NCBI GenBank assembly: GCA_003024785.1
Contig: PUQB01000161.1
Location: forward strand, 62,001 to 126,000
Source of the DNA: Selaginella tamariscina
Lineage: Eukaryota > Streptophyta > Lycopodiopsida > Selaginellales > Selaginellaceae
Direction: 5' to 3'
DNA length: 64,000 nt
Part shown: positions 6,790-33,928 of the stretch, piece by piece
How the letters are laid out: every line of letters begins with the position of its first letter
How positions within the stretch are numbered: position 1 is the first letter of the stretch
Program-made: the position numbers and the translations under genes
The notes under the pieces: model-generated
The model's input: only the letters and a program-made list of their open reading frames with translations
Database searches by the model: none
What the model was told of the DNA's origin: nothing

Positions 6790-6816
6790 ATGCACATTGT
6801 AACTAAAGTGGGCATG
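6790..6816. repeat. Terminal inverted repeat, left end of element II
   Basis: Starts ATGCACATTGTAACTAAAG and ends GGGCATG. Inverse copies lie at 2999-3025, 25401-25426 and 33902-33928. Confidence 0.85.
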
Positions 6817-7065
6817 ATACGTGAAAATGGGAATATAAAATAAATTACTAATTAATACTTAAGTTTTAATTATTAATTAATATGTAATTAAGCCTTAAAT
6901 ATTAATTAATTAATTAATTAATCCTTCAATAACCTTACTTAGTAAGGAATATTCCTAAAATATCTTAGAATATTCATATTATTCTAAAAATAGTTTACAA
7001 TAATGAAGAAATACTATCAAACATAATTACAAATGAAATCATTTTCTTATCAACATGTTAATTTT

Positions 7066-8160
7066 TTATAAATACTTTCTTTCTATCATACAAAGAAATC
7101 TTTTCATTTTGTCTAAATCATCACTCTCCAGATTAATCAAATCATTTTAGTCAATATCTTGATGTTGTTGCCACCACTTAACACTCTCACGAATGCAATT
7201 GGGAGTTGCCATCCTTGTTAATACATAAGATGTGATAAGAGAAGGTCTGCATAAAGGCTCATCTAAAAACTGACGTTCCTTAAGAATAATATTATAAAGT
7301 GCCCGGTTGCTATCCTTCATTTTATAAAATTCAATATCACGAGAAAGAAAAGCTTCAGGAAATGTATGATACGGTGGATACTGCTCACAAAAATTTTCGA
7401 GATTCTTCTTTCTGAGGCACGTATCCAAGTAGTTCACTAGCTCATCCATGATATCGGTATTAGAATATGGATCGAAAGTGATTGGATGAATACAAGCAAT
7501 GTTTTGGTTGAGCATAGCCTTCTGAGGAGAGTCGTCTACTACTAACATCTGTGCGTTCTTCATTATCCTTAAGCGACTGATCTCCCATGAGTCCCAATTA
7601 TTCTTTCATTCTTGAAGAAGTATGGCTTGCTTTCCTTTCTTATATTCTGAAATTCGAGAGGTTTATGACACATTCGCTGGTCAAAATCCAATCTTTACGA
7701 ATCACCTCTTCTGCAACACTACAATGTTTCTTAAGTAAATTCAACAGCGGTGTTAAGTTATGAATCTGCATGCATGACCAAATCCCCACAAGCGCACCCA
7801 TCTCCTTAAGCTTTTGAAAGAGACGATCCAATCCTGATGAAAAATAATATCATATCGAAATTTACCATGACAAGGAATGAAATCTCCTTGTTTGATTTCT
7901 GTTTTTCTATCCTGGGGCCTTTGTCGATGAAGCAGAACACCATTGACATCCAACAACACAATATGGCCATGAGTAACATGAGATGGCGTTGCCTCTTGAA
8001 TACTTTGCTCCCTTTCACATTTATCCGTTGCCACTATCTCGTTGCCTATCCCTTCATCATTTAATTGTACATCATCCTTACAAGATTCAGATATTGCATG
8101 CGCTGAAGAAATTGATTTCGGAACTGAAGCCAATAAAAATGATGATGAAGTGGCCCCCAT
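7066..8160 (-). pseudogene. Gene Y: FCP1/NIF-type HAD phosphatase-like protein (element II)
   Basis: Predicted start ATG at 8160 (MGATSSSF), stop at 7066-7068. Seen: a HAD motif I-like segment LLDVNGVLL, then a segment matching the NIF consensus (PGLDRLFQ, later VGIWSCM), then motif III/IV-like DDSPQKAML, and a C-terminal extension of about 110 residues with a WWQQHQD segment. The family (FCP1/SCP/NIF) dephosphorylates phospho-Ser/Thr, classically on the RNA polymerase II CTD, using DxDx(T/V). Here the second Asp is Asn in both readable copies, so catalysis is doubtful. A one-base loss near 7835 breaks the frame before PGLDRLF, and the frame changes again near 7640. The gene lies between X and the element end, on the same strand as X. 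Confidence 0.65.
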
Positions 8161-8485
8161 GTAACGATGTTTTGAGCTGCATTATTATCCATTTCCTGCA
8201 TGAACTCTATCATTCTGACATGTGGCACAAGAAATTGTCGCCAAACCCCTCTCTTACCTCATGGCAATGCTGAAAATCCATGTTCTCAATTATTTCATTA
8301 CATCTGCAAAATGATAATTAGCTGACCTTAAAATTATCAAGGTATATTATTTACCTTGTTAATGTGGGACCCATGTTTGAACTAAAAGCTTCATTAATCC
8401 TTGAGAATTTATTTTCTGTACAAATATAAAAGAAATATACAAAAATGCCTTATGTTACACTCATTTACAACTATTCGTCACTCTA

Positions 8486-11400
8486 TCAATTCATTATCAA
8501 TTCTTCTTCGCTATTACCTTCTGAGTGAGGCGAAGAAGGTCTAAACCGCTTGTGAGATGGTTCAAGATCTTCTGCATCTTCTATTGATGTTTCCATGGGT
8601 CCTGGAGTGTGCGAATGTTCTGTACTCTTCGAGATAACTTCCGGTCTAATATCTGATTGAAGTTCGTTCTCAGACTCTGAGATTGAACCAGATTCACCTT
8701 CAGAGCTATCGCACTTATTTGGAGGAACTTTCTCAAATACGCCTTTATGGAATCGTTGGGGTACTCAGTTGAGACCCAATCTATCCACTTGTTCAGGTCC
8801 TCAACCATGGTCTTATCCTTTTCAATGGCAAAACACACATGTATGCCGAAGGTAAACTCCTTCAAGACGGACCCCTAGTGCAGTAGTCAAAAACCCACGC
8901 ATCACTATGAGGACCCTTAATCAAGTTGACGATGCTCCGTGCCGCTTGACTTGTAATGTTTGGATAACGTACATTGTCGAATACGTCACTCATACCTATC
9001 GGTGTATCGGATGGAGGTTCAGGGCCGTTGGAGTGCAAACAGATGCCTGGCCAGTCATTTGGAAGTTGAAATTATTTGGCGCATTCCTAACAACCAAGTG
9101 AACAACGGTATCAATGCACTTGGGATTAGCATCGTTCATATAAAATCCTGTCCAACGATGTCTATTCTTCTTGGCGAAGGCGAAGGCAAAAGTATCGGTG
9201 ACATGAGCAAGAATCAAGAAATAAATACCTGAAAAAGTAGGTATCAGTGAGAGGCAAGCATGAATTCAATAATAAATACCTTCTATGTATATGCTTGCAC
9301 GGCTAAGTTTCTCCACCAGATCCTCTAGTGCCCTATCTGTCGAAAGATTTTTTGACACCCGCCGATCCATCACGAACAATTGAAACGGTTTCCTACAAGC
9401 AGTGATGTTACCCCATAAAGTCTCCGAATCTAACAACAAACATCTGTAGGGCTTGTCGTGATTCGTAGCATCCTCCTTTATAAGGTTCAATTCGGTTCTC
9501 CGCTGCTGAAGGACTGCCATAAGAGAAGGCGTCATCCCAATGTTCTCCTTTTTGGCGTTGGCGTGCAATAGATTCTTGCCCAGATCTTCCGATTGGTTCA
9601 CCCATTCGACAAGCATATCATCGTTCGTCACATGCAAATATTTGCTGACCTCTTCATATGTTGAAGTCGAGGTCCAACCCAGTTTGTGGCAGTGTATTCC
9701 CAACCACTCCTTGAAATGCCTGACCGTCTTCAACTCCATTGCCTTGAGATGAAAAGGAGAGGTTGGGCTGCTGTTATTAATTTGTAGTTTGCCATCGATC
9801 ACCAAATCAGCCAAGACTTCCATCTCCTCCATCGTTGTTCCATTTAAAGGCTTCAACCATGTGAGCTTGAAATCGTTGTCTACATCCTTTGTAGATTGAA
9901 CAGACTTAGCCTTCGGCGTCTTACTGGGTTTCTTTGCAGACTTTTCTGAGGGCTCCCCTTCACTTGTCTGCTTCTTCTTCAGTGTTCCTTTTGAAAAGGA
10001 TTCCATAATCCCCAACCATTTGGCAAAGATCCTATCTTCGGGGCAAGAAATCAACATCATCAGAAAGGATGTTTCCTTCCCGCCCACCTGGGCAAAATCA
10101 ACTGCTGCAATTTCTTCAACTCTCTGAGGAAAAAGACAGATTAATATACCGGCGAGATAAATCCCGCCCAAACAATTTGCTTACCCGGTATTCCGCAGAT
10201 TGTGTATTCCCTGCGGTAGCTCTTTGTGGTCGCTGAAGAGATTCCCACACGGCTCGCGTGTGTTTAAACTTCTCCCATATTTTGCTGTTGTAGTGGTTGG
10301 TGTCGGCAGCGTCCCATTCCGCCGATAACTTATGGTACTGCTCGATTGTGAGATTCGGCTTAGCTAAAAACGCCGATCTTTTTGTCAGCTTCTCACGGGT
10401 ATGCTCGGAAAGTTTTGTTGCCATCGTTCCTTTGTTGTGTTCCTCGAGAAGTCGTTGGGCTGCCGTTATTGTGTGCTGGCCACTAATGATGTAGTACTTG
10501 ATAGATTTTTATTCTCCGTCTGAATCTTCATGAGTTGTTCTGGTGTTGTGATCCAGACTTTGTCAGCGCCCTTCCTTCTTTCATAGTATGGACACAAAAC
10601 AGCATTATGTGGAACGGTATAAGAATTGTCGTCCTTCATCTTCTCCATGAGCTCAGCTACACGTTCCTGGTTGAGTGGCCTGTAATTGAAGTTCGCTGCA
10701 ATATTTAACCCTACAAGGATAAATCTTATCATCCAACATCATTTCCTTGTGACTTATTGCAGCATGAGATGCCACAGGTGCAGCTGACAAAACGATTGAT
10801 GATTTTCTTTTGCGATCCGAATCAACATGTGTGATCCCCGACTGCAGCTGTTCTAGTGTTCTCGGTACACTCTTCCAGCTCCCAAAGCTCCTAAGCAAAT
10901 TGAACGTGATCTGTAGAGAACCTGAGACCGAGCCACCCTCTCAATCTCCATTATGATGTCGCTGTGTTCTTCTTCAATGTGAAGAGGGAAGATTGCTCCA
11001 CTTGCTGATTTTCTGTATTGTGAAGCAATATCTCCTGACAATACACCTACTCGATGAGTCTGAAGATTTCGAAGTAGACATCCAGATGGATCCCCTCCAT
11101 AGATGGGCTTTCGTTGAGTTGAAGAAGAACTCCAAGGTCAACATCATTAGTGAACACGTGAACGTCATTATCCACAAGTCGACAAAACCACCCGAAATTA
11201 ATGTTGTAACTGACGACCTCTGGATCCGAGAACGTGACATTGGATGGAACAAGGCATATGTGTCGAGCATCGTCCAATCTGGGTTCGCAGCCTGCTTTCG
11301 GGTGCTTGACTAGCGAATCTACTTTCCATTGTTTTGCTTGTCCATGAGATGTGACAGAGGTTAATTTGACAGCAGCCATGGTTGCTCCAATGCGCTTCCC

Positions 11401-11614
11401 ATTTATCTTAAAATATGGCCAAGTTGATTCCAGAATCCCCCTGCCCATCTCTTCTCCTGCTCTTGTCTTTAATGTCACCTCAATTCCACATCTGAATACA
11501 AAAATGATTAGTTCAAGTATCCGAGTATAACAGATTTTATTTTAATTCTTACCCAGAATTTGACGACGACTCCATACTAATGACTCGATCTCCTTGTTTG
11601 ATCAAATCGTCCTT
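8486..11614 (-). pseudogene. Gene X: ParB-like domain plus degenerate methyltransferase-like protein (element II)
   Basis: Exons inferred on the minus strand: 11614-11553, 11491-10185, 10123-9280, 9228-8486; the last two introns are 61 and 51 bp with GT-AG ends. Order of recognisable parts: an N-terminal segment (GDRVISMESS..., 'GRGIL') resembling the start of the transposase gene; a ParB/sulfiredoxin-like domain (NYRPLNQERVAELMEKM, then YYIISGQHTITAAQRLLEE, like ParB box II); a Lys-rich linker; LFVMDRRVS, at the place expected for a DPPY motif; and DAWVFDYCSRGSVLKE with FAVEKD, like the AdoMet motif I of beta-class amino-methyltransferases. Frameshifts near 11045, 10925, 10690 (8-bp loss against element III), 10505, 9047 and 8880 make it a pseudogene. 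The domain calls rest on motif recognition only. Confidence 0.55.
10151..10171. repeat. Isolated copy of the palindromic motif in an X-gene intron
   Basis: CCGGCGAGATAAATCCCGCCC lies inside the 61-bp intron 10124-10184. It is a near-copy of the 18-bp array palindrome, outside the array. Element III carries a decayed version at about 34400. Confidence 0.6.
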
Positions 11615-11914: not shown

Positions 11915-13395
11915 GTGCGGCGGGATTAATCTCGCCACCCCTTCAATGCCTCCTGAAAGAGTGGGCGGGATTAATCTCGCCACCTTTCTGGAGGCCTTGA
12001 ACGGGAGTGCGGAATTAATCTTGCCACCCTTCTCGGTCTCAGAGAGAACTGGGCAGGATTTATTTCTCACACCCCTTCAGTGACTCCAGAAAGGGGCGGG
12101 ATTAATCTCGCCCACCATGTAAGGATGGTTAAATGAATTTCCCCACCCTTCCCAATTCTCTCCATTGGTATGTTGAAAACCTTCTACGTCTCAGACAGAA
12201 ACGTTTGGGATTGGTCCGACTCACCAATGGAGAAAAAAGGAAGGGTGGCGGGATTCATTCCTCCAACAGGCATTGAAGACTCGGCGGGATTAATCCCGCC
12301 GCCCAGGGCCTTCACTCGGTCCCTATGCGGCGGGATTAATCCCGCCGGACGCCAATTCCCTGCGCGGAATCGGGCGGGATTAATCCCGCCGCCTAGGCAC
12401 TTCAGGCAGGCCAATGGCGGCGGGATAAATCCCGCCCGATTCCGCGCAGGGAATTGGCGTCGGCGGGATTAATCCCGCCTCCCAGGCCCTTCACTCGGGC
12501 CTTAGTCGGCGGGATTAATCCCGCCGAACGCCAATGCCCTGTGCGAAATCTTGCGGGATTAATCCCGCCGCCTAGGCCCTTCAGGCAGGCCAATGGCGGC
12601 GGGATAAATCCCGCCCGATTCCGCGCAGGGCATGCGTACGCGGCGGGATTAATCCCGCCCACCATGTAAGGGATGGTGAAATTAATCCCACCACCCTTCT
12701 CAGTTCCCTCCATTGGTATTTTGTAAACCTTCTCCGTCTCAGACAGAGTTAGTCGGGATTGATTCAACATACCAATGGAGGAAAAAAGAAGGGTGGCGGG
12801 ATTAATCCGCCACCGGGTAATGAAGGTTCGGAGAGACTAATCCCGCCGCCCTCTCGTAAATCATGCGCTCACACATATATATTGGCTGCGGCATTTTGAA
12901 CAGGGATGGGTGGGGGCGGGATTAATCCCGCCGCTTATATCCTGCGGAAGTGCCTGAGCGGCGGGATTAATCCCGCCGCCCTCCGCGAAGGGCATGAGCG
13001 TGGGGCCGGATTAATCCCGCCGTTCATGTCCTGCGTGAATTCCCTGGGCGGCGGGATTAATCCCGCCGCCTTACGCGCAGGACATGTCATGCAGGCTCTT
13101 CGGTTAGCCTTCCGTGCAGGATCTTTCATGCAGGCTCTTCGGTTAGCCTCATGAGCGGCGGGATTAATCCCGCCGCCCATCCCCTGTAAATGCCCTGCGC
13201 GGAATCCGGCGGGATTAATCCCGCCCATTAGGGCCTTCACACAGGCCATTGCCGGCGAGATAAATCCCGCCGCATTCCGCGCAGGGCATGGGTGAGCGGC
13301 GGGATTAATCCCGCCGCCATGGCCCCAACCATATAGCGGCGGGATTAATCCGCCGCCGAGGCTATAAACCTATAGCGGCGGATTAATCCGCCGCT
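11915..13395. repeat. Palindrome array A (element II, X side)
   Basis: About 20 good copies plus decayed ones of GGCGGGATTAATCCCGCC, a perfect 18-bp self-complementary palindrome, spaced roughly 40-50 bp apart. Some have TAAA for TTAA. The left part (11915-12120) is degenerate. The GC-rich spacers share GCGCAGGGCAT/ATGCCCTGCGC-type words. It sits between the X gene and the microsatellite core. Confidence 0.95.
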
Positions 13396-14556
<1,161 letters not shown>

Positions 14557-14557
14557 C

Positions 14558-14828: not shown

Positions 14829-14855
14829 ATGCAAGTTGTAACTAAAATGGGCATG
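14829..14855. repeat. Terminal inverted repeat, left end of element I
   Basis: Starts ATGCAAGTTGTAACTAAAA and ends GGGCATG. It is the transposase-side terminus; its inverse is 33902-33928. Confidence 0.85.
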
Positions 14856-15326
14856 GCTATAGTCCCCATTTCCTAATAATTAGCAATTTTACTATTTAAT
14901 TAGCATTTTCTAATATTAAAGGAATATTCTTTAGAATATATGTTTGAAAAGAGAATATTCTTTAGAATATTCTATTTTTGTATTCTACCCTTTAATAAAT
15001 TATAGCATTCATTGAACAAAAATTAATAACATTATAAAGTAGAATGTATTAAATTATATAATATATTGCCTAATATAACAATTAAGAAGAGCATAAGAGG
15101 TACATTATATAAATATTGATGTTGTTATTAAAATATTAATATTTAAATATAACATTATTAATTAAAAATTGTAGTAGTAATATATATATAAATCCTATAA
15201 TAATATAGTCAATCTTCCATATCATTTTTAAATTTATATAGTTAAGTATACAATTTGGTACTATTATTAAAGAGTTTATAATAATTATGAATTTAAATAT
15301 ATGATATTTTATAATTTTGTAATGCT
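14856..15326. other. AT-rich tail between transposase stop and terminus (element I)
   Basis: Non-coding, inverse of 33423-33901. Contains paired GAATATTC-type motifs. No gene. Confidence 0.7.
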
Positions 15327-18279
15327 TTAAGCTTCAGAAAACATACATTCCCTTGCAGTTTTGTTAATCGTGACTTTATCAACGCTTCTTGACATCCACC
15401 CATATCGAATGGATTTAACATTTATAAAACATGCTGGGTCTTTTGATTGGGAGACCATGTTTTCTCTAGGCATCCATTATATCTTTCGCTCTCCTTCTCG
15501 TGTCGCCTTTTTTGTGGTTTGAACCATGCAACCTTAACAATACTATTTTTTGTGATTACTTCAGGTGTGTCGATAATTTGACCCATCCAAATAGGCGATT
15601 ATATGACGCATCTGGAGTAATGAGAACCATCATTAGTTTTGAAGATCCTTGCAGCAATCAAAGTATGCTTTAGGTTTTTGGTTCCTTTGTCCAACAAAGT
15701 GTGGGTTTGCACTTCCACATCACTACTGGCTTCTATGTCGTCTGTGCTCAGTGATGTCATTTCAATCTCCTCTCGCCACCTTGTTTAGGCCAGAAAGGGT
15801 GTTGCAATTCTGTACTTGTGACAGTAGGCCCTTCCAACTCTCGAACAACAGTCTCCCAATAGTTGCCACATGCTTATATAGTTCTGAGTAACCAGTTGCC
15901 TTATCAGAATTCTTTGGCATCGATTTTTTGAACCCATGCCACATATTTTTGATGCATCAATAATAACCTCTTGTTCCTTGAGCTGGGCACTCAATGGAAT
16001 AGGGTCTGGTTGTCCTTCTGGGAGAAGTGGCTTTCCATCCTCTTCCACTTTTGAAGAGCATTAAGCCTCTTTCGGTAACCACTCCTGCTCTGATGGCCGT
16101 AACTTGTACTGCATAATAGGTATACCATCTCGTATGGAGAAAAAGAATTGTAGCGGCACAAGGTGACCAACTAAAGAATCACTCCCTTCTTTTATATACT
16201 CCTTGAGAAATTTTTTGAAGTCTGGCACCTCAGTCACAAGCAAAGCACAACTTTTTTTGGAGATGCAATTTTCAAAAAGATTCATCATATGCGGTAAGGT
16301 AAGTGCACTTGTCCTTTTTGTAGAGTTGGAGACCTTGCTGAAGAACGCATCAATATCTTCATGAGGTGACCAACCATAAGGAAACTGAGCGTGATTGTTT
16401 CAAACACCACCTTTGGCAACAAGCATTGACAAGTATGCTAGCACATATCTAGAAAATAAAAGTAAGTATGAGCTTGAGAAACCCTTAAGTAAAATGATTT
16501 ACCTATTTTGTTCTCGCCTGCACAATTATCCATCTGTAAAAGCAAATGACGAGGAAGCTTATTTGATGTTGAGGACACATGTACACTATTTGAGCTAGAT
16601 CCCTCCACTGAACCTGAACTCTCAACAGGGCCATCTGTTTTTTGTGCAGGTTGCTGACAATGCCTCTCATATTCCCAAGTAGCCTCAAGTGCAGACGTGT
16701 TTGAGAGCATTATGTAAAGGTTGAAGGTGTTGTTTCTTCACTTTGAGATCACTGATAGGATTTGTCTGAGAGTGGGCTTCAAGGTTTCATGACATTTCCA
16801 AGGCACTTTGGTGTTGCAAAGAGCTTTGGAATGCTGGTCTTTGAATGATCCATCTTGTCATGGATCAAGCACAGGTACTCTGATGGGCGTGATATAGAAA
16901 GCATGCGGTGTGCATAGTACTGAGACCGACAAGTTTGTTGTGCAATCATGTGGGCCTCCATCTTCCTTTGAATGGTAGTGATCTTCACCAAGGTTTTTGC
17001 ACAAGCCTCTGCAGCCTTCAATGATGTACAAGTGTCACACTTAAAAAAGCTAGGTGTTTTGCAATCTCACATCCTTAAAATGAGTATCCATATGTTGTTG
17101 AAGTACCAGTGCAGATTGCTTGGAGCCCCATCAAACTGAGGCACTTGTTCACTGTTCACACAGTTCAATTGAGTGTAGATTGAAGGTAAAACCTTGAGAT
17201 TTTCCCTGACCCCTGCATTTGTGGTTCGGCATTTGTGAGGCATCCTGTCTGCATTTGCTTCCACAAAAGCCTTGAGTATCTCTATGGCTGCCATGATGTG
17301 AGAGCGGGTTTTGACCAAGCCAGTGTTCCCATGAACTGAGGTTCGCGCTCCATCTAGCCACTCATCCCTCCGACGTAGAACGTGGTCTTTGGGATCCGTA
17401 ATACTGTACCAAGCTTTGAAGCAGATGGCCACCTTATTAAATACCATGGATGTACTCTGATAACCTGTGTCCGAGGCCATTCCATCAATACACCCAGTTA
17501 GTGTAGCATATACAAACTCATGCCTTTGCTTTTGGGTGAGCATACGAAAGACATGTCTACATTGGGTAATTTCATTCCGGTCTGCCATCTGACAACACTT
17601 CTTCTTGCAACAGTCAATTGTGGAAATGCTCGTAACACTTTCGGAAGATGTAGGATCCATCTTTACCCTCTTGCTGAAACTTGCAGGGGAAGATCTACAA
17701 CCCATGAATCGCCTTTTTCTTACAATAGGACCAATGCAAGGAACTCTTCTTCAAATGAGTTGTTCTTCCGGGTTGTTATTATTGAAATCCAACCCAGAAT
17801 ATGTTGAACCATCTTGCCGTCTTAATTCAGATGTTCGCCACCTCACGAGGATCTAAGATACAATGTGCCATTAGGTGAAACCTCTGTCACAACTACACCC
17901 ACGAAGTCGGACCTAGTTTCTCTTCTGACACTGCTTCCATTGGATTTATGCTGCTCTCACGAAGAAAGAGAATCACCTCATCCATTACAGCAGGCAAGCC
18001 ATCATCTGGTAAACTCGTGCTACTATTTGTTTGTGACTCTGCATATTTTGTGTCAGCCTTGACTTCATCCAAATTCCACAATACAGGAGAACCCTCCTCA
18101 AATTCCATTCCCAGAACCTCAACATGCTTGTAAATGGTGTTCACCCATACGTACACACAAGATCCTTGGGAAATATTGTGACATGATGCATTATTATCTC
18201 GAACTTCCACAGTTCCAGTGCCAACTATCTCGTTGTTCCGAAGAAGACATACTTTATCTCCAGTATTAAACATATTGTC
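15327..18279 (-). pseudogene. Broken DUF7869-like transposase gene (element I)
   Basis: Collinear with the intact gene at 30297-33422 but damaged. The coding start region is at 18279-18271 and the stop at 15327-15329. A 128-bp segment (31828-31955 in element II) is missing at about 16788, with GAAAC microhomology at the joint, and removes the region downstream of the DKMDHSKTSIP motif. More frameshifts occur near 17395, 17050, 16330, 16060 and 15780. Key blocks (MDNCAGENK, the GHTHEDID region) are still recognisable. It cannot make a full protein. Confidence 0.85.
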
Positions 18280-18423
18280 CTGCACATAAATAATTGTATT
18301 ATTTATGATATCTGTTTATGCAATATTTTTAAGAAATCTGAATTACGGTTACTTAATAATATGCATATGCAATAATACATAATTATGTTTAGAGATAATA
18401 TCTCATGTTTGATTAATACAACT

Positions 18424-20480: not shown

Positions 20481-20489
20481 TAAATCCAA

Positions 20490-20900: not shown

Positions 20901-20901
20901 C

Positions 20902-20932
<31 letters not shown>

Positions 20933-21177
20933 ATATGTATAGGAGTGTGCGTATAATTTTATTTATTAGTTTTATCTCTCGCACACACACGCACACTCCT
21001 GTGTATGTATATGTGTGTGTGGGTGTGTGTTTGTTTATCTGTATGATTTTATTTGTTTCGCTCACACAGCATACACACGATTATACATATACACATATAT
21101 ATATATATACCTATATACATATATACATACATATATTATGTGTACCAGTTTCTGTAAATTTTTTTTATTGATCTTGC

Positions 21178-21234
<57 letters not shown>

Positions 21235-21715: not shown

Positions 21716-21726
21716 TAAGCCCCTCG

Positions 21727-22735
21727 AGCGGCGGGATTAATCCCGCCGCTATATAGTTGGGGCCATGGCGGCGGGATTAATCCCGCCGCGAGGCCGCGCA
21801 GGACATGGGTGAGCGGCGGGATTAATCCCGCCGCCGAGGCCCCTCACGCAGGCTATGGGCGGCGGGATTAATCCCGCCGCTCTACGACAAACCGAAGAGC
21901 GGCAGGATTAATCCCGCCACCCATGGCCTACGTGAGGGGCCTCGGCGGCGGGATTAATCCCGCCGCTCATCCATGCCCTGCGCGGAATGCGGCGGGATTT
22001 ATCTCGCCGGCAATGGCCTGTGTGAAGGTTCTAATGGGCGGGATTAATCCCGCCGGATTCCGCGCAGGGCATTTAGAGGGAATGGGCGGCGGGATTAATC
22101 CCGCCGCCGAGGCCCCTCACGCAGGCCATGGGCGTGGGATTAATCCCGCCGCTCTTCGGTTTGTCGTAGAGCGGTGGGATTAAATCCCGCCGCCCAGGGA
22201 ATTCACGCAGGACATGAACGCTGGGATTAATCCGGCCCACGCTCATGCCCTTCGCGGAGGGCGGCGGGATTAATCCCGCCGTTCATGTCCTGCGTGAATT
22301 CCCTGGGCGGCGGGATTAATCCCGCCCCCACCCATCCCTGTTCAAAAATGCCGCAGCCAATATATATGTGTGAGCGCATGATTTACGAGAGGGCGGCGGG
22401 TTAGCCGCCGAACCTTCATTACCGGTGGCGAGATTAATCTCCGAACCTTCATTATCCCATTGGTATGTTGAATCAATCCGCCTAACTCTGTCTGAGACGG
22501 AGAAGGTTTACAAAATAATACAATGGAGGGAACGAGAAGGGTGGTGGGATTAATTTCACCATCCCTTACATGGTGGGCGGGATTAATCCCGCCGTGTACG
22601 CATGCCCTGCGCGGAATCGGGCGGGATTTATCCCGCCGCCATTGGCCTGCCTGAAGGGCCTAGGCGGCGGTTAATCCCGCAAGATTTCGCACAGGGCCTG
22701 GGAGGCGGGATTCATCCGCCGAACGCCAATGCCCT
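21727..22735. repeat. Palindrome array B (element I, X side)
   Basis: About 15-18 copies of GGCGGGATTAATCCCGCC or close variants at 40-50 bp spacing, inverse of array A. It passes into X-gene sequence at about 22763 without the 9440-11900 equivalent. Confidence 0.95.
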
Positions 22736-22762
22736 GTGCGAAATCGGGGTAAAATCATCGGG

Positions 22763-23660
22763 TGCGAAATCGAGACTTTATGGGGTAAATCACTGCTTGT
22801 AGGAAAACCGTTTCAATTGTTCGTGATGGATCGACGGGTGTCAAAAAATCTTTCGACAGATAGGCACTAGAGGATCTGGTGGAGAAACTTAGCCGTGCAA
22901 GCATATACATAGAAGGTATTTATTATTGAATTCATGCTTGCGCTCTTCACTGATACCTACTTTTTCAGGTATTTATTTCTTGATTCTTGCTCATGTCACC
23001 GATACTTTTGCCTTCGCCTTCGCCAAGAAGAATAGACATCGTTGGACAGGATTTTATATGAACGATTGCTATCCCAAGTGCATTGATACTGTTGTTCACT
23101 TGGTTGTTAGGAATGCGCCAAACAATTTCAAGCTTCCAAATGACTGGCCAGGCATCTGTTTGCACTCCAACGGCCCTGAACCTCCATCCGATACACCGAT
23201 AGGTATGAGTGACGTATTCGGCAATGTACGTTATCCAAACATTACAAGTCAAGCGGCACGGAGCATCGTCAACTTGATCAGGGGTCCTCACAGTGATGCG
23301 TGGGTTTTTGACTACTGCTCTAGGGGGTCCGTCTTGAAGGAGTGTTACCTTCGGCATACATGTGTGTTTGCCGTTGAGAAGGATAAGACCATGGTTGAGG
23401 ACCTGAACAAGTGGATAGATTGGGTCTCAACTGAGTACCCCAACGATTCCATAAAGGCGTATTTGAGAAAGTTCCCTCCAGATAAGTGCGATAGCTCTGA
23501 AGGTGAATCTGGTTCAATCTCGGAGTCTGAGAACGAACATCAATCAGATATTAGACCGGAAGTTATCTCGAGGAGTACAGAACATTCGCACACTCCAGGA
23601 CCCATGGAAACATCAATAGAAGATGCAGAAGATCTTGAACCATCTCACAAAGCGGCTTAG
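22763..23660 (+). pseudogene. Gene X 3' part: methyltransferase-like region (element I)
   Basis: Exon remnant 22763-22917, then an intron ending in CAG at 22968, then an exon from 22969 with an open frame to a stop at 23660. This exon is the best-preserved copy of the region. It contains ILAHVTDTFAFAFAKKNRH, later HSDAWVFDYCSRGSVLKE and VFAVEKDKTMVEDLNKW, which I read as an AdoMet-binding motif I and the following acidic strand of an amino-methyltransferase fold. The upstream remnant carries LFVMDRRVS where DPPY would be expected. The ParB-like domain and the normal start are absent, and the tail stops early (SHKAA) relative to element II. Not functional as it stands. Confidence 0.55.
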
Positions 23661-24041
23661 ACCTTCTTCGCCTCATTCAGAAGGTAATAGCGAAGAAGAA
23701 TTGATAATGAATTGATAGAGTGATGAATAGTTGTAAATGAGTGTAACATAAGGCATTTTTGTATATTTCTTTTATATTTGTACAGAAAATAAATTCTCAA
23801 GGATTAATGAAGCTTTTAGTTCAAACATGGGTCACACATTAACAAGGTAAATAATATACCTTGATAATTTTAAGGTCAGCTAATTATCATTTTGCAGATG
23901 TAATGAAATAATTGAGAACATGGATTTTCAGCATTGCCATGAGGTAAGAGAGGGGTTTGGCGACAATTTCTTGTGCCACATGTCAGAATGACAGAGTTCA
24001 TGCAGGAAATGGATAATAATGCAGCTCAAAACATCGTTACC

Positions 24042-25147
24042 ATGGGGCCACTTCATCATCATTTTTATTGGCTTCAGTTCCGAAATCAATTTCTTCAGCG
24101 CATGCAATATCTGAATCTTGTAAGGATGATGTACAATTAAATGATGAAGGGATAGGCAACGAAATAGTGGCAACGGATAAATGTGAAAGGGAGCAAACAA
24201 GTGATTTGCAAAATTCAAGAGGCAATGCCATCTCATGTTACTCATGGCCATATTGTGTTGTTGGATGTCAATGGTGTTCTGCTTCATCGACAAAGGCCCG
24301 AGGATAGAAAAAACAGAAATCAAACAAGGAGATTTCATACCTTGTCATGGTAAATTTCGATATGATATTATTTTTCGTCCAGGGTTGGATCGTCTCTTTC
24401 AAAGCTTAAGGAGATGGGTGCGCTTGTGGGGATTTGGTCATGCATGCAGATTCATAACTTAACACCGCTGTTGAGTTTACTTAAGAAACATTGTAGTGTT
24501 GCAGAAGAGGTGATTCGTAAAGATTGGATTTTTAACCAGCGAATGTGTTATAAACCTCTCGAATTTCACAATATAAAGAAAGGAAAGCAAGCATACTTCT
24601 TCAAGAATGAAAGAATAATTGGGACTCATGGGGAGATCAGTCGCTTAAGGATAACGAAGAATGCACATATCTTAGTAGTAGACGACTCTCCTCAGAAGGC
24701 TATGCTCAACCAAAACATTGCTTGTATTCATCCAATCACTTTCGATCCATTTCTGATATCGATATCATGATGAGCTAGTGAACTACTTGGATACGTGCCT
24801 CAGAAAGAAGAATCTCGAAAATTTTTGTGAGCAATATCCACCGTATCATACATTTCCTGAAGCTTTTCTTTCTCGTGATATTGAATTTTATAAAATGAAG
24901 GATAGCAACCGGGCGCTTTATAATATATTCTTAAGGAACGTCAGTTTTTAGATGAGCCTTTATGCAGACCTTTCTTATCACATCTTATGTATTAACAAGG
25001 ATGGCAACTCCCAATTGCATTCGTGAGAGTGTTAAGTGGTGGCAACAACATCAAGATATTGACCAAAATGATTTGATTAATCCGGAGAGTAATGATTTAG
25101 ACAAAATGAAAAGATTTCTTTGTATGATAGAAAGAAAGTATTTATAA
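24042..25147 (+). pseudogene. Gene Y: FCP1/NIF-type HAD-like protein (element I)
   Basis: Same gene as 7066-8160. Start ATG at 24042, but it is followed by one G fewer than in element II, so the frame is lost at once. A second base loss at about 24397 follows the RPGLDRLFQ segment, which here is better preserved than in element II. DDSPQKAML is at about 24678-24704. Further losses occur near 24750 and 24930. The stop at 25145-25147 is conserved. The lesions differ from those in element II, so the two copies decayed separately. Confidence 0.65.
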
Positions 25148-25400
25148 AAAAATTAACATGTTGATAAGAAAATGATTTCATTTGTGATAGTATTTCTTCA
25201 TTATTGTAAACTATTTTTTAGAATAAATATGAATATTCTAAGATATTTTAGGAATATTCCTTACTAAGTAAGGTTATTGAAGGATTAATTAATTAATTAA
25301 TTAATATTTAAGGCTTAATTACATATAATTAAATGATTAATTAATAATTAAAACTTAAGTATTAATTAGTAATTTATTTTATATTCCCATTTTCACGTAT

Positions 25401-25430
25401 CATGCCACTTTAGTTACAATGTGCATATGT
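25401..25430. repeat. Right terminal repeat of element I plus ATGT duplicate
   Basis: Terminal repeat 25401-25426 (CATGCC...ACAATGTGCAT, one C shorter than other copies), followed by ATGT at 25427-25430. Confidence 0.8.
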
Positions 25431-25827
25431 ATCAATACATAATACACATTGCATATATTAATACACATAATATATACATACACACGTGTATACACATAGA
25501 CATACATACATATTACATGGGTTTAGGGTTTAGGGTTTAGGGTTTTGGATTTAGGATGGATCATGCATGGTGTGTATGTATGAGAAGAAGAGAGTGTTGA
25601 AAAATTATTTTTGTACACATTGCATATATTAGTACACATATATACTTACACATATTATACACAGATATACATACATAGTATATGAGAGAAGGAGACAGTA
25701 CATATTATGGATCATGCATGGTGTGTATTATACACACAGACATACATACATATTAGTACATAATTATTAGAGAGACCGAGTACATATTATAGATCATGCA
25801 TGGTGTGTATGTTTGAGAGAAGAGAGA
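25431..25827. other. Element II core resumes: telomere-like and CA/TA-rich DNA
   Basis: Continues the sequence interrupted at 14828. Contains TTTAGGG repeats at 25518-25550 and repeated GGATCATGCATGGTGTGTAT blocks. No gene. Confidence 0.7.
25518..25550. repeat. Interstitial telomere-like repeat (TTTAGGG)n
   Basis: Four tandem TTTAGGG-type units, with further arrays at 27748-27773 and 27837-27865. Confidence 0.9.
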
Positions 25828-25832
25828 CAGTA

Positions 25833-27593
25833 TGTCATAATTTTTACTATGACTCGACCCTTTACTTTGGACGTTGACTGTTGTTACCTACTGTACTATG
25901 TTGATGGACCCTAGATGTAGTAGGAAACAGGCCTGCTTAGTGCACTTGGGTATCTGGTGATGGTCTGGCCGGGTGTCATTAGGTATTTGCAGGAAACTCT
26001 AAGCGAAGCTAGAACTTACCTTCTAGAAACCCACCCCCAATTTTGACGTCCCGAATAGGTTGTTTGGTCTTTGCAAATGAGTTCGGCGTGTTAAGTAGGG
26101 TTAGGAACACCCCTAGGGTTGACCTAACCCTAGGGTTGCCCTAACCCACGCCCTAAAACCCCCACCCCCTTGGGTAGGGTTTAGGGGTAGGAGTTATAGG
26201 CTCATATTGCTAATTTATCTAAGGGGCTAGAATTCAGTGCCAGCCCACTAATACAAACAAGTAAAGAGGGGGGGGGGCTCCGTCACATAAATAAGGTAGA
26301 GTATACGTAGGAGAGCTCCTGGGTTCATGAATGAGTTCGTTGCTCTTCTGCCGGTGCAAGCTTCAGCTTGTGTCGTTAAGGTACAACCCTCTGTTGTGCC
26401 GCCCTAACTTCCAGATGCCAGGGGTACGTCCCACCTTTGGGGTAGCTTACCCTTAACGTTGGCGAATCCATGCCTGGGAGGTCTTGTCGGAATGCACGTT
26501 CCAAGAGGCAGAGGTTGAGGCTTGTCTCTAGCCTCCTCCTCCACGTCAAGCTAGGTGTAGCACTCACGGCCAAGCAAGGCACATCCGTGTCCTTGTCCAA
26601 TTGTGGGCGTGGGATCTTGTTTGACATGTTCATGTTACCTGGTTCCTAGGGTTCATTGAGGGGTTCTAGAGTTGGCATTTAGGAACCACGTTTGTGGTAC
26701 TTGGTGCAACTCTTGAATCTAAGGGCTATGGCATGATAGCCCACATCTTGGAAGGCAGTGTCACATGGGGATGTGACACTGGGCTAAACGTCACATGGTA
26801 CAACGCCGAGGCACGCCTTTGGGGTTATGTCATGGGCTTGTCGCTAAGGGGTTGGATACTCTAGCAAACAGGCATGCTTGTGCTTGCACTAGGGTGCTAA
26901 GCCTTGGGCATCCGCTCAAGGGAGGTTAGGTCTCGTAACTAGGTGTGCTTTGGCACACTTGGCTAGGGGAGTGTTCTCCTTGGAATCCAGGGGTTGAACA
27001 ACCTAAGCTCATTAGCAGAAGCCCTTTCGTAAGGCACTCGCAAGGTCATGTGCTTAGGGTTATCCCAAACCTAGCCTTAGGGAGTTTGCTTAGCAAAACA
27101 CTCGTGTTCGCCTACGGCGCACACTCGTGTCCTCACTAAGTACTAGCCCTAGGTCTAGGGTGTAACTTGGCCACTCAAACCCTTAGGGGTTAGTCGTGGT
27201 TCAGGGTACCCCTTGTCGCCCTAAAGGGGTTGTACTCCCGGATGAGGGTGATTCCTCAAGGGGTAAGTGACAATGCCTTAGCTCTGTCACGGGGGTATGT
27301 GTGGAACACACGTCTCCTTGATGGGGGGTTAGGGCATGAGCCTGTCTAGGTCTTCTAGGGCAAGACCCTAAGTCAACTAGGGTTATCCCTCAAGGGTTCT
27401 GGGGGCAGACATTCTAGGGAGACTTAGGCTAAACCCTAAGTCTCTTGTCCACTTGGGCATTAGAGTCTAACCTTAGGGGTCGTTGGGGTTGTTCTGGGAA
27501 ACTTAGCGTTGCTCACACAGGGTGATGACGCCGAATGGCCACTTGGCAGCCACGTGTTGCCACGTGTTGGCCCTTTGGGTTAAAACTCTGACA
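25833..27593 (+). mobile_element. Solo LTR with 5-bp target duplication
   Basis: Starts TGTCATAATT and ends CTCTGACA, so it has the TG...CA ends of an LTR. It is flanked by CAGTA on both sides (25828-25832 and 27594-27598). It is 1,761 bp with no internal region, so it arose by LTR-LTR recombination or an equivalent loss. It interrupts the core of element II. Relatives: 5143-6789 (-), 44252-45885 (+), about 49107-50733 (+). Confidence 0.9.
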
Positions 27594-27747
27594 CAGTACA
27601 TATTAACATGGATCATGCATGGTGTGTATGTATGAGAGAAGACAGAAAGTACACATATATACATACAGAGTACACATATATACATGCACGTGTATACACA
27701 CAGACATACATACATATTACATGAGTAAATTCATTGTGTTACATATT

Positions 27748-27865
27748 AGGGTTTAGGGTTTAGGGTTTAGGATGGATCATGCATGGTGTGAAGAGAGAGT
27801 GTTGAAAAATTATTTTTGTACACACATGTATACACAGGGTTTAGGGTTTAGGGTTTAGGGTTTGC
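27748..27865. repeat. Two further TTTAGGG arrays
   Basis: TTTAGGG units at 27748-27773 and 27837-27865, separated by a GGATCATGCATGGTGTG block, within the element II core. Confidence 0.85.
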
Positions 27866-27959
27866 TCCCAACAAGCTTAATATAAATATTACACATGTAA
27901 ATTCAATGTGTTACATACACACAGATTGAGTACATATATCATACATGCGTTGAACATGA

Positions 27960-28985
27960 TGTTTTCAATAAAGAAGCAACATATTTCTTCAGTTTGGTTT
28001 AGGGTTGTGCATGTGTGTGCATATGTGTTTTTGTAAGTTCTTGTAATGCGTGTGTAAATTTATGATTGTGTTTATATATGTGTGCAAAACAAACATCGAA
28101 TAATTAAGAAAATAATATTAATAAACACACTATGAACATATTTTAAATTATACATAATAATATATGATTTTATCTAATATATAGCCATATATAGTTTTAA
28201 TAATATATATTAATTTAATATTGATAAAAAGGTTTAACATTGAAATATTCTTGAAATAATAAGAAATTAATTGAGAAAATCCCATTAATATATACAAATG
28301 TAAATTAAGTACTCAAATAATTAACTAAATTAATTATCATAATCATGTTTAATATTGGAATATTCTTGGAATAATAAGAAAATAATAAAGAATATCCCAT
28401 TAATATAAAGAAGATTAATTACTCAAGTAATTAAGGAAATGATATTAATATATATATTATTAAAACTATATATGACTATATATTAGATAAAATGATGTAT
28501 TATTATGTATAATTTAATAATAGTGTGTATTAATTTAATATTGATAATAAGGTTTAACACATGAATATTCTTGAAATAATAACAAATTAATTGAGAAAAT
28601 CCCATTAATATATACAAATGTAGAATAATTACTGCAATAATTAAGAACAAGACTAATTTAATTATGATAATCAGGTTTAATATTAGAATATTCTTCAAAT
28701 ATTAATAAAATATTAAAGAATATCCCATTGATACTAGGAAATGAAAACTAAATACTCGAGTAATTAAGAAAATAATAATAATAAACAGACTATGAATATA
28801 TTTTAAATGATACATAATAATATATCAATTTATTTATTGTATAAGTATATATTTATATATATATATATATATAAATATACTTGAATACTAAGAATGTAGA
28901 ATATAGTCTAAAATTTCGTAATATTAAACAGCTTGAATCACTTGAATAACATTAAATGCAATTTTAAAATACTCATTGGAACTGG
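27960..28985. other. AT-rich core of element II
   Basis: More than 1 kb of A/T-rich DNA made of diverged repeats containing AAGAATATTC, TTAATATATAC and GAGAAAATCCCATTAA. No gene seen. Inverse of about 19380-20300. Confidence 0.7.
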
Positions 28986-28989
28986 AGAG

Positions 28990-30296
28990 TATATATGTCA
29001 GAGTGTCGGATATTTGTGTCAACTCATCTTAAATTTTATTTTCTGTTCTTTTTAAAAAATTTGAATTTCTGACATATGTATTGTCGGTCTGACATGTAAA
29101 TTTGAAAATGCATTTAATTTCCCACTCAAATTCAGATCTGGTTCTTTCTCCGGCAAGGGTTTCTTCATTTCTGTATTTTTCACTCTTTAGATCTTCTTTT
29201 TTCTTCATAGTGATCATCTCAGGAGCGAGATTAAATTGGGTGCTATTCTTTATAGGAAAGCACGGCGCCTTCAGTGCTGTTTACAAGTAAGTATTATAAA
29301 CAAATTTAAAAATACTTATAAAGATTCACTCTCTTACATTCTCTCTTAAAATTACAATTTAGGGGTTTAGGAATGCATTAGGATTATATATATTCCGTTA
29401 GGGATTTATCCCGTTTAAATATCCTTTTAACTTAATATTCTAGGTTAACCGGGGCGGCGGGATTAATCCGGCCATTTCTTTTTCGCCTCTTCGAAGAGGT
29501 GGCGGGATTAATCCCGCCACCATCTCTCGGGCAATGCTTCTCCGCCACTGAAAAAGAGTGGCGGGATTAATCCCGCCGATAACCTTCTCAACTGATGAAG
29601 AGTTACCAGAATTTATTAAAAGAGTTGTCGGCGGGATTAATCCCGCCAACCATTTTAGGAGGCAGGGAAGGGGTGGCGGGATTAATCTCGCCACCACATC
29701 CCTGTTTTAAGGATTTGGGGACAGGATTATCCGAGATCTCTTTGAAATCATAGTTTTGGAGAGAGTTATGTGCGGGTTTAATCCCGCCACCCATTCCCCG
29801 TCGTAAGAATTGTGGGCGGGATTAATCCCGCCTTGGACTCCCTCCGACAAGGAAGAGCCGGCGGGATTAATCCCCCGCCGGGGACCTCTCTCCGGCGAGG
29901 ATGAGTCGGCGGGATTAATCCCGCCGGACTCCCTTCCTCGTCGGAGAGAGTCGGCGGGATTAATCCCGCCGGACTCCCCCCGAGGAGGAAGAGGCGGCGG
30001 GATTAATCCCGCCGGCTCTTCCTTGTCGGAGGGAGTCCAAGGCGGGATTAATCCCGCCGACTCTCTCCGAAGGGGTTGAGTCGGCGGCGGGATTAATCCC
30101 GCCGACCGTTCCTCGTCGGAGGGATTCGTGGGCGGGATTAATCCCGCCCATCAGTTGTATTAATCAAACATGAGATATTATCTCTAAACATAATTATGTA
30201 TTATTGCATATGCATATTATTAAGTAACCGTAATTCAGATTTCTTAGAAATATTGCATAAACAGATATCATAAATAATACAATTATTTATGTGCAG
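28990..30296 (+). promoter_or_regulatory. Candidate promoter, leader exon and first intron of the transposase gene
   Basis: Inference. TATATAT at 28990-28996. The transcribed leader would end at a consensus donor (CAA|GTAAGT, exon edge 29286), conserved in element I. The coding exon is preceded by an acceptor (TTTATGTGCAG, ending 30296). The intron (29287-30296) would contain palindrome array D. Confidence 0.4.
29450..30150. repeat. Palindrome array D (element II, transposase side)
   Basis: About 15 copies of GGCGGGATTAATCCCGCC at 35-60 bp spacing. The left half has AT-richer spacers; the right half has spacers built from TCCGACGAGGAA-type words that are themselves inverted around the motif. 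It ends about 150 bp before the transposase coding sequence. Confidence 0.95.
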
Positions 30297-33200
30297 GACA
30301 ATATGTTTAATACTGGAGATAAAGTATGTCTTCTTCGGAACAACGAGATAGTTGGCACTGGAACTGTGGAAGTTCGAGATAATAATGCATCATGTCACAA
30401 TATTGCCCAAGGATCTTGTGTGTACGTATGGGTGAACACCATTTACAAGCATGTTGAGGTTCTGGGAATGGAATTTGAGGAGGGTTCTCCTGTATTGTGG
30501 AATTTGGATGAAGTCAAGGCTGACACAGAATATGCAGAGTCACAAACAAATAGTAGCACGAGTTTACCAGATGATGGCTTGCCTGCTGTGATGGATGAGG
30601 TGATTCTCTTTCTTCGTGAGATTGAAGTCGGAAGAGGCATCATCACAGCTATAAATCCAATGGAAGCAGTGTCAGAAGAGAAACTAGGGTCCGACTTCGT
30701 GGGTGTAGTTGTGACAGAGGTTTCACCTAATGGCACATTGTATCCTGGATCCCTCGTGAGGTGGCGAACATCTGAATTAAGACGGCAAGATGGTTCAACA
30801 TATTCTGGGTTGGATTTCAATAATAACAACCCGGAAGAACAACTCATATTTGAAGAGGTTCCTTGCATTGGTCCTATTGTAAGAAAAAGGCGATTCATGG
30901 GTTGTAGATCTTCCCCTGCAAGTTTCAGCAAGAGGGTAAAGATGGATCCTACATCTTCCGAAAGTGTTACGAGCATTTCCACGATTGACTGTTGCAAGAA
31001 GAAGTGTTGTCAGATGGCAGACCGGAATGAAATTACCCAATGTAGACATGTCTTTCGTATGCTCACCCAAAAGCAAAGGCATGAGTTTGTATATGCTGCA
31101 CTAACTGGGTGTATTGATGGAATGGCCTCGGACACAGGTTATCAGAGTACATCCATGGTATTTAATAAGGTGGCCATCTGCTTCAAAGCTTGGTACAGTA
31201 TATACGGGATCCCAAAGACCACGTTCTACCGTCGGAGGGATGAGTGGCTAGATGGAGCGCGAACCTCAGTTCATGGGAACACTCGCTTGGTCAAAACCCG
31301 CTCTCACATCATGGCAGCCATAGAGATACTCAAGGCTTTTGTGGAAGCAAATGCAGACAGGATGCCTCACAAATGCCGAACCACAAATGCAGGGGTCAGG
31401 GAAAATCTCAAGGTTTTACCTTCAATCTACACTCAATTGAAACTGTGTGAACATGTGAACAAGTGCCTCAGTTTGATGGGGCTCCAAGCAATCTGCACTG
31501 GTACCTTCAACAACATATGGAATACTCATTTTAAGGATGTGGAGATTGCAAAACACTCTAGCTTTTCTAAGTGTGACACTTGTACATCATTGAAGGCTGC
31601 AGAGGCTTGTGCAAAAACCTTGGTGGAGATCACTACCATTCAAAGGAAGATGGAGGCCCACATGATTGCACAACAAACTTGCCGGTCTCAGTACTATGCA
31701 CACCGCATGCTTTCTGTGTCACGCCCATCAGAGTACCTGTGCTTGATCCATGACAAGATGGATCATTCAAAGACCAGCATTCCAAAGCTCTTTGCAACAC
31801 CAAAGTGCCTTGGAAATGTCATGAAACTTCCGATTTCATTGACAGGTGTGCTAACACATGGACACGGTTGTGAGTCATATGGACACTTTTCACTTCCACA
31901 TTGGTCTAGCGACTCCAATTTCACTATTGGGTCGTTAGCCATGTGTTTCAGAAACCTTGAAGCCCACTCACAGACAAGTCCTATCAGTGATCTCAAAGTG
32001 AAGAAACAACACCTTCAACCTTTACATAATGCTCTCATGAACACATCTGCACTTGAGGCTACTTGGGAATATGAGAGGCATTGTCAGCAACCTGCACAAA
32101 AAACAGATGGCCCTGTTGAGAGTTCAGGTTCAGTGGAGGGATCTAGCTCAAATAGTGTACATGTGTCCTCAACATCAAATAAGCTTCCTCGTCATTTGCT
32201 TTTACAGATGGATAATTGTGCAGGCGAGAACAAAAATAGGTAAATCATTTTACTTAAGGGTTTCTCAAGCTCATACTTACTTTTATTTTCTAGATATGTG
32301 CTAGCATACTTGTCAATGCTTGTTGCCAAAGGTGTGTTTGAAACAATCACGCTCAGTTTCCTTATGGTTGGTCACACTCATGAAGATATTGATGCGTTCT
32401 TCAGCAAGGTCTCCAACTCTACAAAAAGGACAAGTGCACTTACCTTACCGCATATGATGAATCTTTTTGAAAATTGCATCTCCAAAAAAAGTTGTGCTTT
32501 GCTTGTGACTGAGGTGCCAGACTTCAAAAAATTTCTCAAGGAGTATATAAAAGAAGGGAGTGATTCTTTAGTTGGTCACCTTGTGCCGCTACAATTCTTT
32601 TTCTCCATACGAGATGGTATACCTATTATGCAGTACAAGTTACGGCCATCAGAGCAGGAGTGGTTACCGAAAGAGGGCTTAATGCTCTTCAAAAGTGGAG
32701 AGGATGGAAAGCCACTTCTCCCAGAAGGACAACCAGACCCTATTCCATTGAGTGCCCAGCTCAAGGAACAAGAGGTTATTATTGATGGCATCAAAAAATA
32801 TGTGGCATGGGTTCAAAAATCGATGCCAAAGAATTCTGATAAGGCAACTGGTTACTCAGAACTATATAAGCATGTGGTCAACTATTGGGAGACTGTTGTT
32901 CGAGAGTTGGAAGGGCCTACTGTCACAAGTACAGAATTGCAACACCCTTTCTGGCCTAAAACAAGGTGGCGAGAGGAGATTGAAATGACATCACTGAGCA
33001 TAGACGACATAGAAGCCAGTAGTGATGTGGAAGTGCAAACCCCACACTTTGTTGGACAAAGGAACCAAAAACCTAAAGCATACTTTGATTGCTGCAAGGA
33101 TCTTCAAAAACTAATGATGGTTCTCATTACTCCAGATGCGTCATATAATCAGCCTATTTGGATGGGTCAAATTATCGACACACCTGAAGTAATCACAAAA

Positions 33201-33422
33201 AATAGTATTGTTAAGGTTGCATGGTTCAAACCACAAAAAAGGCGACACGAGAAGGAGAGCGAAAGATATAATGGATGCCTAGAGAAAACATGGTCTCCCA
33301 ATCAAAAAGACCCAGCATGTTTTATAAATGTTAAATCCATTCGATATGGGTGGATGTCAAGAAGCGTTGATAAAGTCACGATTAACAAAACTGCAAGGGA
33401 ATGTATGTTTTCTGAAGCTTAA
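30297..33422 (+). CDS. Intact DUF7869-like, putative DDE-type transposase (element II)
   Basis: Coding exons 30297-32239 and 32294-33422, with a 54-bp GT-AG intron splitting GENKNR|YVL; about 1,020 residues with no internal stop. The first in-frame ATG is at 30303; an acceptor just before 30297 suggests an upstream leader exon. Residues ~1-60 and ~100-170 hold two GDKV.../GRGII...-type beta-rich modules, weakly like DUF8039 of plant transposon proteins. A Cys-rich stretch (CCKKKCC) follows at ~235. Further on come HDKMDHSKTSIP, MDNCAGENKN and VGHTHEDIDAFF, the order expected for acidic residues of an RNase H-like DDE/D fold. I recognise these as DUF7869-type; the transposase role is inferred from its position inside the terminal repeats. 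It is the only intact gene of the element in the window. Confidence 0.8.
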
Positions 33423-33928
33423 AGCAATTACAAAATTATAAAATATCATATATTTAATATTCATAATTATTATAAACTCTTTAATAATAGTACCAAATTG
33501 TATACTTAACTATATAAATTTAAAAAATGATATGGAAGATTGACTATATTATTATAGGATTTATATATATATTATTACTACTACAAATTTTTAATTAATA
33601 ATGTTATATTTAAATATTAATATTTTAATAACAACATCAATATTTATATAATGTACCTCTTATGCTCTTCCTTAATTGTTATATTAGGCAATATATTATA
33701 TAATTTAATACATTCTACTTTTATAATGTTATTAATTTTTGTTCAATGAATGCTATAATTTATTAAAGGGTAGAATACAAAATAGAATATTCTAAAGAAT
33801 ATTCTCTTTTCAAACATATATTCTAAAGAATATTCCTTTAATATTAGAAAATGCTAATTAAATAGCTAAAATTGCTAATTATTAGGAAATGGGACTATAG
33901 CCATGCCCATTTTAGTTACAACTTGCAT
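33423..33928. other. 3' non-coding tail and right terminal repeat of element II
   Basis: AT-rich with GAATATTC pairs. The terminal repeat is at 33902-33928 (CATGCCCATTTTAGTTACAA then CTTGCAT). Confidence 0.8.

Follow-up and report, generated by a model that had tools for sequence, protein, structure and literature searches.

Among the DNA transposons with terminal inverted repeats (TIRs), those of the CMCT clade leave target duplications of 2-5 bp and in some cases carry accessory genes, CACTA elements have CAC..GTG ends and a 3-bp duplication, and Zisupton (KDZ) elements duplicate 8 bp of target, as set out by Kojima (2025; PMC12730594). The repeat family considered here lies in a 64,000-nucleotide stretch of the genome of the lycophyte Selaginella tamariscina (assembly GCA_003024785.1, contig PUQB01000161.1, positions 62,001 to 126,000 of the forward strand), referred to below as the window. 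It is probably a high-copy, recently active, autonomous cut-and-paste transposon of about 14.6 kb, which carries a gene for a protein of the DUF7869 family, two accessory genes, X and Y, and arrays of an element-specific palindrome that are predicted to be bound by protein.

With CACTA/En-Spm and CMCT elements the family shares TIRs, accessory genes and, probably, short target duplications, and two relatives of its DUF7869 protein match the TNP1/En/Spm domain PF03017 just under the cut-off of 21 bits (P0001, 19.9; P0005, 17.8). It differs from CACTA/En-Spm in its ends, which are ATGCA..TGCAT, and in that no exact 3-bp flank match occurs among 16 two-ended large copies, the window's two included. 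From both groups it also differs in the motif order of the DUF7869 protein, read by eye against the definition in PMC12730594, and in that its predicted binding-site arrays are internal. The absence of any 8-bp flank match among the 16 copies separates it from Zisupton as that source describes it. Conserved terminal inverted repeats on dispersed copies make this a TIR transposon in kind, and there is a fair chance that it will form a new superfamily once its transposase is placed, the groups from which it is so far set apart being CACTA/CMCT and Zisupton only. Transposons of several lineages carry a gene thought to aid escape from silencing, and an accessory gene of possible such role is a further likeness; here, however, it is a NIF/FCP1-type phosphatase gene accompanied by Y, in a plant host and alongside a DUF7869 protein.

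Terminal repeats, copies and target duplications

The 27-bp TIR has the consensus ATGCA(M)(R)TTGTAACTAAA(R)TGGGCATG. Self-comparison of the window reveals one repeat family with this TIR at its ends, represented by five members or more, and the pattern is found at five places with at most one mismatch (2061-2087, 2999-3025 and three given in Table 1), against none in 100 shuffles; a sixth TIR, at 25401-25426, is one G short. Across the genome (300.7 Mb in 1,391 contigs, designated below by C-numbers) there are 2,802 exact matches, and none for the reversed control. If most of these TIRs sit in two-ended elements, the elements would number of the order of 1,400; with a length of 14.6 kb apiece, they would make up at most about 7% of the genome, a figure that small derivatives and fragments lower. 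Among the first 100 TIRs listed, 28 have a facing neighbour, which in 13 cases is 13.5-15.5 kb away, and a 701-base query from the left end matched 40 places at 98-100% identity, the window's own counted (from 1,819 first-look candidates). Viral contigs searched with the TIR core gave no match.

Ten copies, fetched by a left-TIR match, were compared for gene content, and the X-Y block is present in nine. Six copies (C453, C460, C464, C481, C506 and C527; 14,498-14,712 bp) are collinear through DUF7869 to the right end. The block is also kept in C468 and C505, where DUF7869 is interrupted or cut short, and in C448, where DUF7869 is rearranged with an older copy; of C458 only the first 1.3 kb of the element is visible, in a stretch with 240 unknown bases. 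In an older full-size copy (C84:1363-15445, 14,083 bp), whose older parts share 84-90% identity with the young form, DUF7869, Y, X and both arrays are all present, and the three-gene layout is therefore not recent. Mismatches between copies are few and gaps many (2 mismatches for C448 over 5,181 columns, 14 for C506 over 3,939), the pattern that assembly error would be expected to give in young repeats, and near-identity of this order indicates that the element has moved recently. An earlier reading of the window, made from its letters alone (the sequence-only reading), had proposed one family with conserved 27-bp terminal repeats and an intact length of about 14.8 kb. The family and its repeats are borne out by the TIR searches, the end-to-end copies come close to the length, and other copies do carry the same three genes between their terminal repeats.

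A sibling of 6,672 bp without X and Y (C84:1363-8034) was considered and rejected, its right end being that of a 246-bp derivative inserted in the full-size older element. As X, Y and both arrays are all found in that full-size element, a late acquisition of X and Y is no longer proposed.

Within the C84 copy, identity to the young form changes in a sharp step (L069 near 3062), from 98.8% to 83.8%, such as recombination or a misjoin in the assembly would produce, and the identity steps in C448 are similar. Contigs C445, C172, C139 and C42 stop before the element's expected right end, which looks like an assembly breaking off at the repeat. Of the first 100 TIR matches listed, 16 are of a third type, ATGCATGTTGTAACTAAAATGGGCATG, and the five such ends examined come from older copies or from small derivatives. 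Of 34 left-end flanks, 6 (one of them weak) touch sequence of the family; this is a raw count, and preferential self-insertion is not claimed.

An exact 4-bp flank match is found in five of the 16 large copies (ATTT, ATAC, CTTC, ATGT and ATAT, of which ATAT can be extended to 6), where 0.5 would be expected by re-pairing flanks. Such a duplication also flanks both of two 246-bp elements. The first, inside the C84 copy (L069:6527-6772; ATAT), consists only of two element ends, of 114 bp and ~122 bp, and the second, on C89 (L075:101-346; ACCA), is 91% identical to it; neither has array sequence. These elements, which resemble miniature inverted-repeat transposable elements, appear to be non-autonomous derivatives that depend on the large element for mobilisation. 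Weighing against a 4-bp duplication are the 11 of the 16 large copies, the outer element of the window among them, that have none, and the older C84 copy, which also has none; for 7 of 16 further copies the right end was not found in a 600-bp slice. Taken with the two small elements, these counts may reflect a 4-bp target duplication that misjoins between near-identical copies have blurred.

The DUF7869 protein and the palindrome arrays

The spliced DUF7869 protein of the outer window copy matches PF25273 at 159.6 bits, against a curated cut-off of 26 (E 9.1e-47). Among 5.8 billion proteins, five relatives were found at 28-36% identity, and the motifs IHDKMD, QMDN and HTHEDID are common to the protein, P0001 and P0002; viral contigs searched with the DUF7869 alignment gave no relative, and a literature search for the word DUF7869 found no paper. 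In the diverged C448 copy, the DUF7869 coding sequence has changed at 40 of 1,057 positions, and the DNA upstream of it at 53 of 496 (p 2e-7). Of the DUF7869-like transposase proposed in the sequence-only reading, the family identity is thus established above the Pfam cut-off, and the protein is presumably the transposase. Three results weigh against this assignment or against constraint on the protein: the AlphaFold model of P0001 is too poor for fold comparison (predicted local distance difference test score, pLDDT, 48.7), the third-position excess against part of C448 reaches only p 0.08, and differences between inner and outer window copies are spread evenly over codon positions 1, 2 and 3 (13/11/13).

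Directly upstream of the two divergent gene blocks lie two arrays, of about 22 and 15 sites, of the 18-bp palindrome GGCGGGATTAATCCCGCC, which has 48 sites in the window at no more than one mismatch where 0 are expected. The six collinear copies together hold 229 sites, 18-26 in each Y-side array, 10-18 in each DUF7869-side array and 5 elsewhere, and the spacing is 43-46 bp in 120 of 212 cases. Within these copies the major base accounts for a fraction of 0.96-0.98 in the palindrome against 0.42-0.44 in the linkers. The end of the DUF7869-side array is 154-155 bp upstream of the start codon in all six copies and in the outer copy of the window. The Y-side array begins 324-360 bp above the residues GDRVISME at the start of Y, as measured in the five copies in which those residues were located. 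Palindromes in the older part of C448 have changed at 19 of 252 positions and the linkers, whose alignment is uncertain, at 118 of 435. On these substitution counts, the palindromes and the DUF7869 protein are both constrained.

The palindrome pair has no match in viral contigs, and the literature search found no paper with the 18-bp palindrome or its first 15 bases, the inner 12 bases alone occurring in one paper. A lone palindrome-like site is also present within gene Y at a likely intron, in the outer copy (10151-10168), in fragment F3 (34399-34416) and in five of the six collinear copies.

The fixed distance to the DUF7869 start, together with the presence of an array upstream of Y, suggests an operator to which a predicted dimeric product of the element itself would bind. 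It is quite improbable that the arrays are ordinary satellite or mutation-driven tandem repeats devoid of binding function. Their size does vary among copies, as in tandem repeats, but a plain tandem repeat would keep its linkers as alike as the palindrome, and the linkers are near random within a copy; the C448 counts, subject to the linker alignment, also speak against it. The arrays might instead be sites at which the transposase itself binds to assemble the transposition complex. They would then correspond to subterminal repeats in an internal position rather than to promoter operators, and their element specificity, even spacing and constraint would fit. This is unlikely, however, since the arrays lie kilobases from the TIRs and at a constant distance from the DUF7869 start, and both 246-bp derivatives have 4-bp duplications without any array sequence, which suggests that arrays are not needed in cis for movement. 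Operators of the element's own promoters are the preferred reading of the arrays.

Genes X and Y

Gene X of C506 matches PF03031 (NIF) at 47.0 bits against a curated 21.8 (E 2.8e-12), in keeping with the FCP1-like phosphatase gene recognised by the sequence-only reading. The usual catalytic motif of NIF/FCP1 phosphatases is DxDx(T/V). The first motif of X departs from it, reading DVNGV with Asn in place of the second Asp, so that phosphatase activity is uncertain. X is without a stop in 86 of the 108 genome matches listed, one of them a 25-residue piece, and differs from older C84 at 15, 19 and 34 of 359, 360 and 358 sites at codon positions 1, 2 and 3 (p 0.008). A read-through of X from the window gave no hit among 5.8 billion proteins, and viral contigs gave none. 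In the genome search 107 of 7,457 candidates were scored, all at least 90% identical, and no host parent of X was found among those scored. The distinct lineage that gained regulatory genes, as previously proposed, holds as one lineage with conserved TIRs; "regulatory" and "gained" are interpretation, no donor having appeared.

Profile searches of the three proteins placed DUF7869 and NIF/FCP1 above their Pfam cut-offs but left the name first given to Y, ParB/methyltransferase-like, without a match: no ParB or methyltransferase profile or sequence reached cut-off in Pfam, PHROGs, NCBIfam, PDB sequences or phage records. The window read-through of Y has no relative among 5.8 billion proteins, nor has Y any in viral or prokaryotic contigs, and bacterial Spo0J, tried as a bridge from Y to ParB, yielded nothing. 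The closest matches below threshold, for a Y stretch joined from two window copies, are a PHROG without known function (E 0.0027) and DUF6551 (E 0.033). A ParB-like motif, ISGQHTITAAQRL, is visible in Y by eye, which is not a test. The motif [DNS]PP[YWF], catalytic in amino-methyltransferases, was not seen by eye in the Y C-terminus (P0008), for which the AlphaFold model (pLDDT 34.9) is too poor to search. Bacterial ParB-parS systems thus resemble the element in this by-eye motif and in the arrays of palindromic sites within the same element; they differ in that Y has no ParB profile match and that no ParA was noticed among reading frames of at least 100 residues in three copies, names read by eye.

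In C506, Y is open over 631 residues and then over a further 273, and majority letters over eight copies give open stretches of 478, 304 and 273 residues, with frame changes where introns are likely. Y is kept as a protein because of a third-position excess in two comparisons. Against C27, an older copy (~21-24% diverged), differences number 74/64/119 of 444/446/438 at codon positions 1/2/3 (two stretches summed; p 2e-6), and in the first part of Y, compared with C84, they number 33/49/62 of 620 at each position (p 0.009), a stretch read out of frame in C506 being included at the end of that part. Two further comparisons weigh on the other side, the last part of Y against C84 giving 22/13/24 (p 0.14) and Y against F3 only a trend (68/48/71, p 0.06). 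The codon-position pattern marks Y as a protein-coding gene under constraint.

That X and Y are captured passengers carried without function is rather improbable. X does come from a widespread phosphatase family, and neither gene is intact in the window copies, which also counts against an autonomous element with working accessory genes; but both are present in nine of the ten sampled copies and in older C84, X is open in most of its listed matches, and both have the third-position excess. A pseudogene reading of X and Y was likewise rejected as the main one. Over eight copies of the X-Y region, a single copy alone accounts for the change in 192 of 225 columns with a missing base and in 138 of 166 with an extra one, against substitutions that are private in 45 columns and shared in 17; this indel pattern looks like assembly error. 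Real decay of single X-Y copies may also occur.

Nesting in the window and the proposed mode of action

The outer element, TIR to TIR, encloses an inner element of opposite orientation and an insert of another repeat (Table 1). The nesting is real, because the outer flanks joined across the inner copy reproduce that copy's own uninterrupted core, save for 2 extra bases at the join, 1 substitution and 1 further gap. About 3 kb has been lost from the inner copy, including most of gene Y. The sequence-only reading saw at least two bounded copies, two fragments and the same three genes in the same order, with one block pointing left and one right from a central repeat core. The two copies stand, as the outer and the nested inner one, whereas the fragments come from at least three further members; the gene layout holds in the outer copy and, for want of most of Y, not in the inner; and the gene blocks do point outward from the core. 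The two palindrome arrays contained in this core go unmentioned in that reading.

Table 1. Members of the element family in the window and their parts, in window positions
Feature	Positions	Strand	Basis or remark
Outer element, TIR to TIR; encloses inner element and another repeat	6790..33928	.	self-comparison, TIR matches
Outer left TIR	6790..6816	+	pattern match
Gene X, outer copy, broken by indels	7069..8181	-	open over 386 residues in copy C506
Gene Y, outer copy, likely several exons, broken by indels; no family match	8489..11541	-	reading frames, copy comparison
Palindrome array upstream of Y, outer copy	11919..13355	.	26 sites at no more than 4 mismatches
Inner nested element, 10,598 bp, Y mostly lost	14829..25426	.	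orientation opposite to outer; candidate 4-bp duplication ATGT
Inner TIR, DUF7869 side	14829..14855	+	pattern match
DUF7869 gene, inner copy, frameshifted	15300..18300	-	comparison with outer copy
Palindrome array, DUF7869 side, inner copy	18427..18895	.	9 sites
Palindrome array, Y side, inner copy	21730..22721	.	17 sites
Gene Y, C-terminal part, inner copy	22893..23712	+	self-comparison, reading frames
Gene X, inner copy, broken by indels	24020..25144	+	reading frames
Inner TIR, X side, one G missing	25401..25426	-	sequence comparison
Insert of another repeat inside outer element, ~2.3 kb	~25676..27989	.	boundaries from alignment
Palindrome array upstream of DUF7869, outer copy	29456..30148	.	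14 sites, 10 perfect
DUF7869 gene, outer copy, intact, 1,021 residues; putative transposase	30303..33422	+	one 54-nt GT..AG intron at 32240-32293
Outer right TIR	33902..33928	-	pattern match
Fragment F1 (1-572 and 2088-3025) enclosing fragment F2 (574-2087)	1..3025	.	self-comparison, TIRs
Fragment F3: Y region and palindromes of older copy; outer right end inserted into F3	33929 to at least 36527	.	self-comparison

A long core rich in TG/TA microsatellites (13396-14828) separates the Y-side array from the point at which the inner copy is inserted. A further copy of gene X at C462:59692-60933, some 1-2 kb to the left of the window edge, is probably part of the F1 cluster. A second repeat family of ~1.6 kb has four copies in the window, 68-85% identical (5143-6744, 25832-27466, 44251-45782 and 49116-50699), one of them within the outer element and one adjoining its left TIR. 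Pieces of long-terminal-repeat-type retroelements (reverse transcriptase, RNase H) occur at 46003-46365, 52569-53072 and 57874-58398. Two likely host genes are represented by a VQ-motif protein (61211-61633; PF05678, E 1.7e-9), of a family mainly of land plants, and a DHHC palmitoyltransferase piece (62207-62563; E 1.6e-5, below the family cut-off).

In the mode of action proposed for the autonomous element, the DUF7869 protein would act on the TIRs as an RNase-H-like transposase whose insertions duplicate 4 bp of target, and the motifs IHDKMD, QMDN and HTHEDID could form its RNase-H-type centre. The 246-bp derivatives, having the two ends only, would be mobilised in trans. A dimeric protein of the element, either Y or the N-terminal part of the DUF7869 protein, would bind the arrays and control both promoters or keep them open. 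The TnpA protein of maize Spm binds repeated sites near the Spm promoter, and by analogy the arrays would act as operators. X, whose family acts on the tail of RNA polymerase II, may do so in favour of the element, aiding its transcription or its escape from silencing. A bolder proposal, and a doubtful one, is that of a separate DUF7869-based superfamily with its own control system, in which an array-binding protein (Y, possibly ParB-like and acting somewhat as ParB does on parS) and a polymerase-II-tail phosphatase would keep copies numbering of the order of a thousand in an expressed or unsilenced state.

An intact DUF7869 protein between TIRs, in a family with about 2,800 exact TIR matches, provides a putative transposase that can be tested. 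With arrays upstream of both gene blocks, a constrained Y and a phosphatase of FCP1 type, the transposon appears to supply its own control of transcription, and the near-identical copies point to movement so recent that the element might be caught in action.

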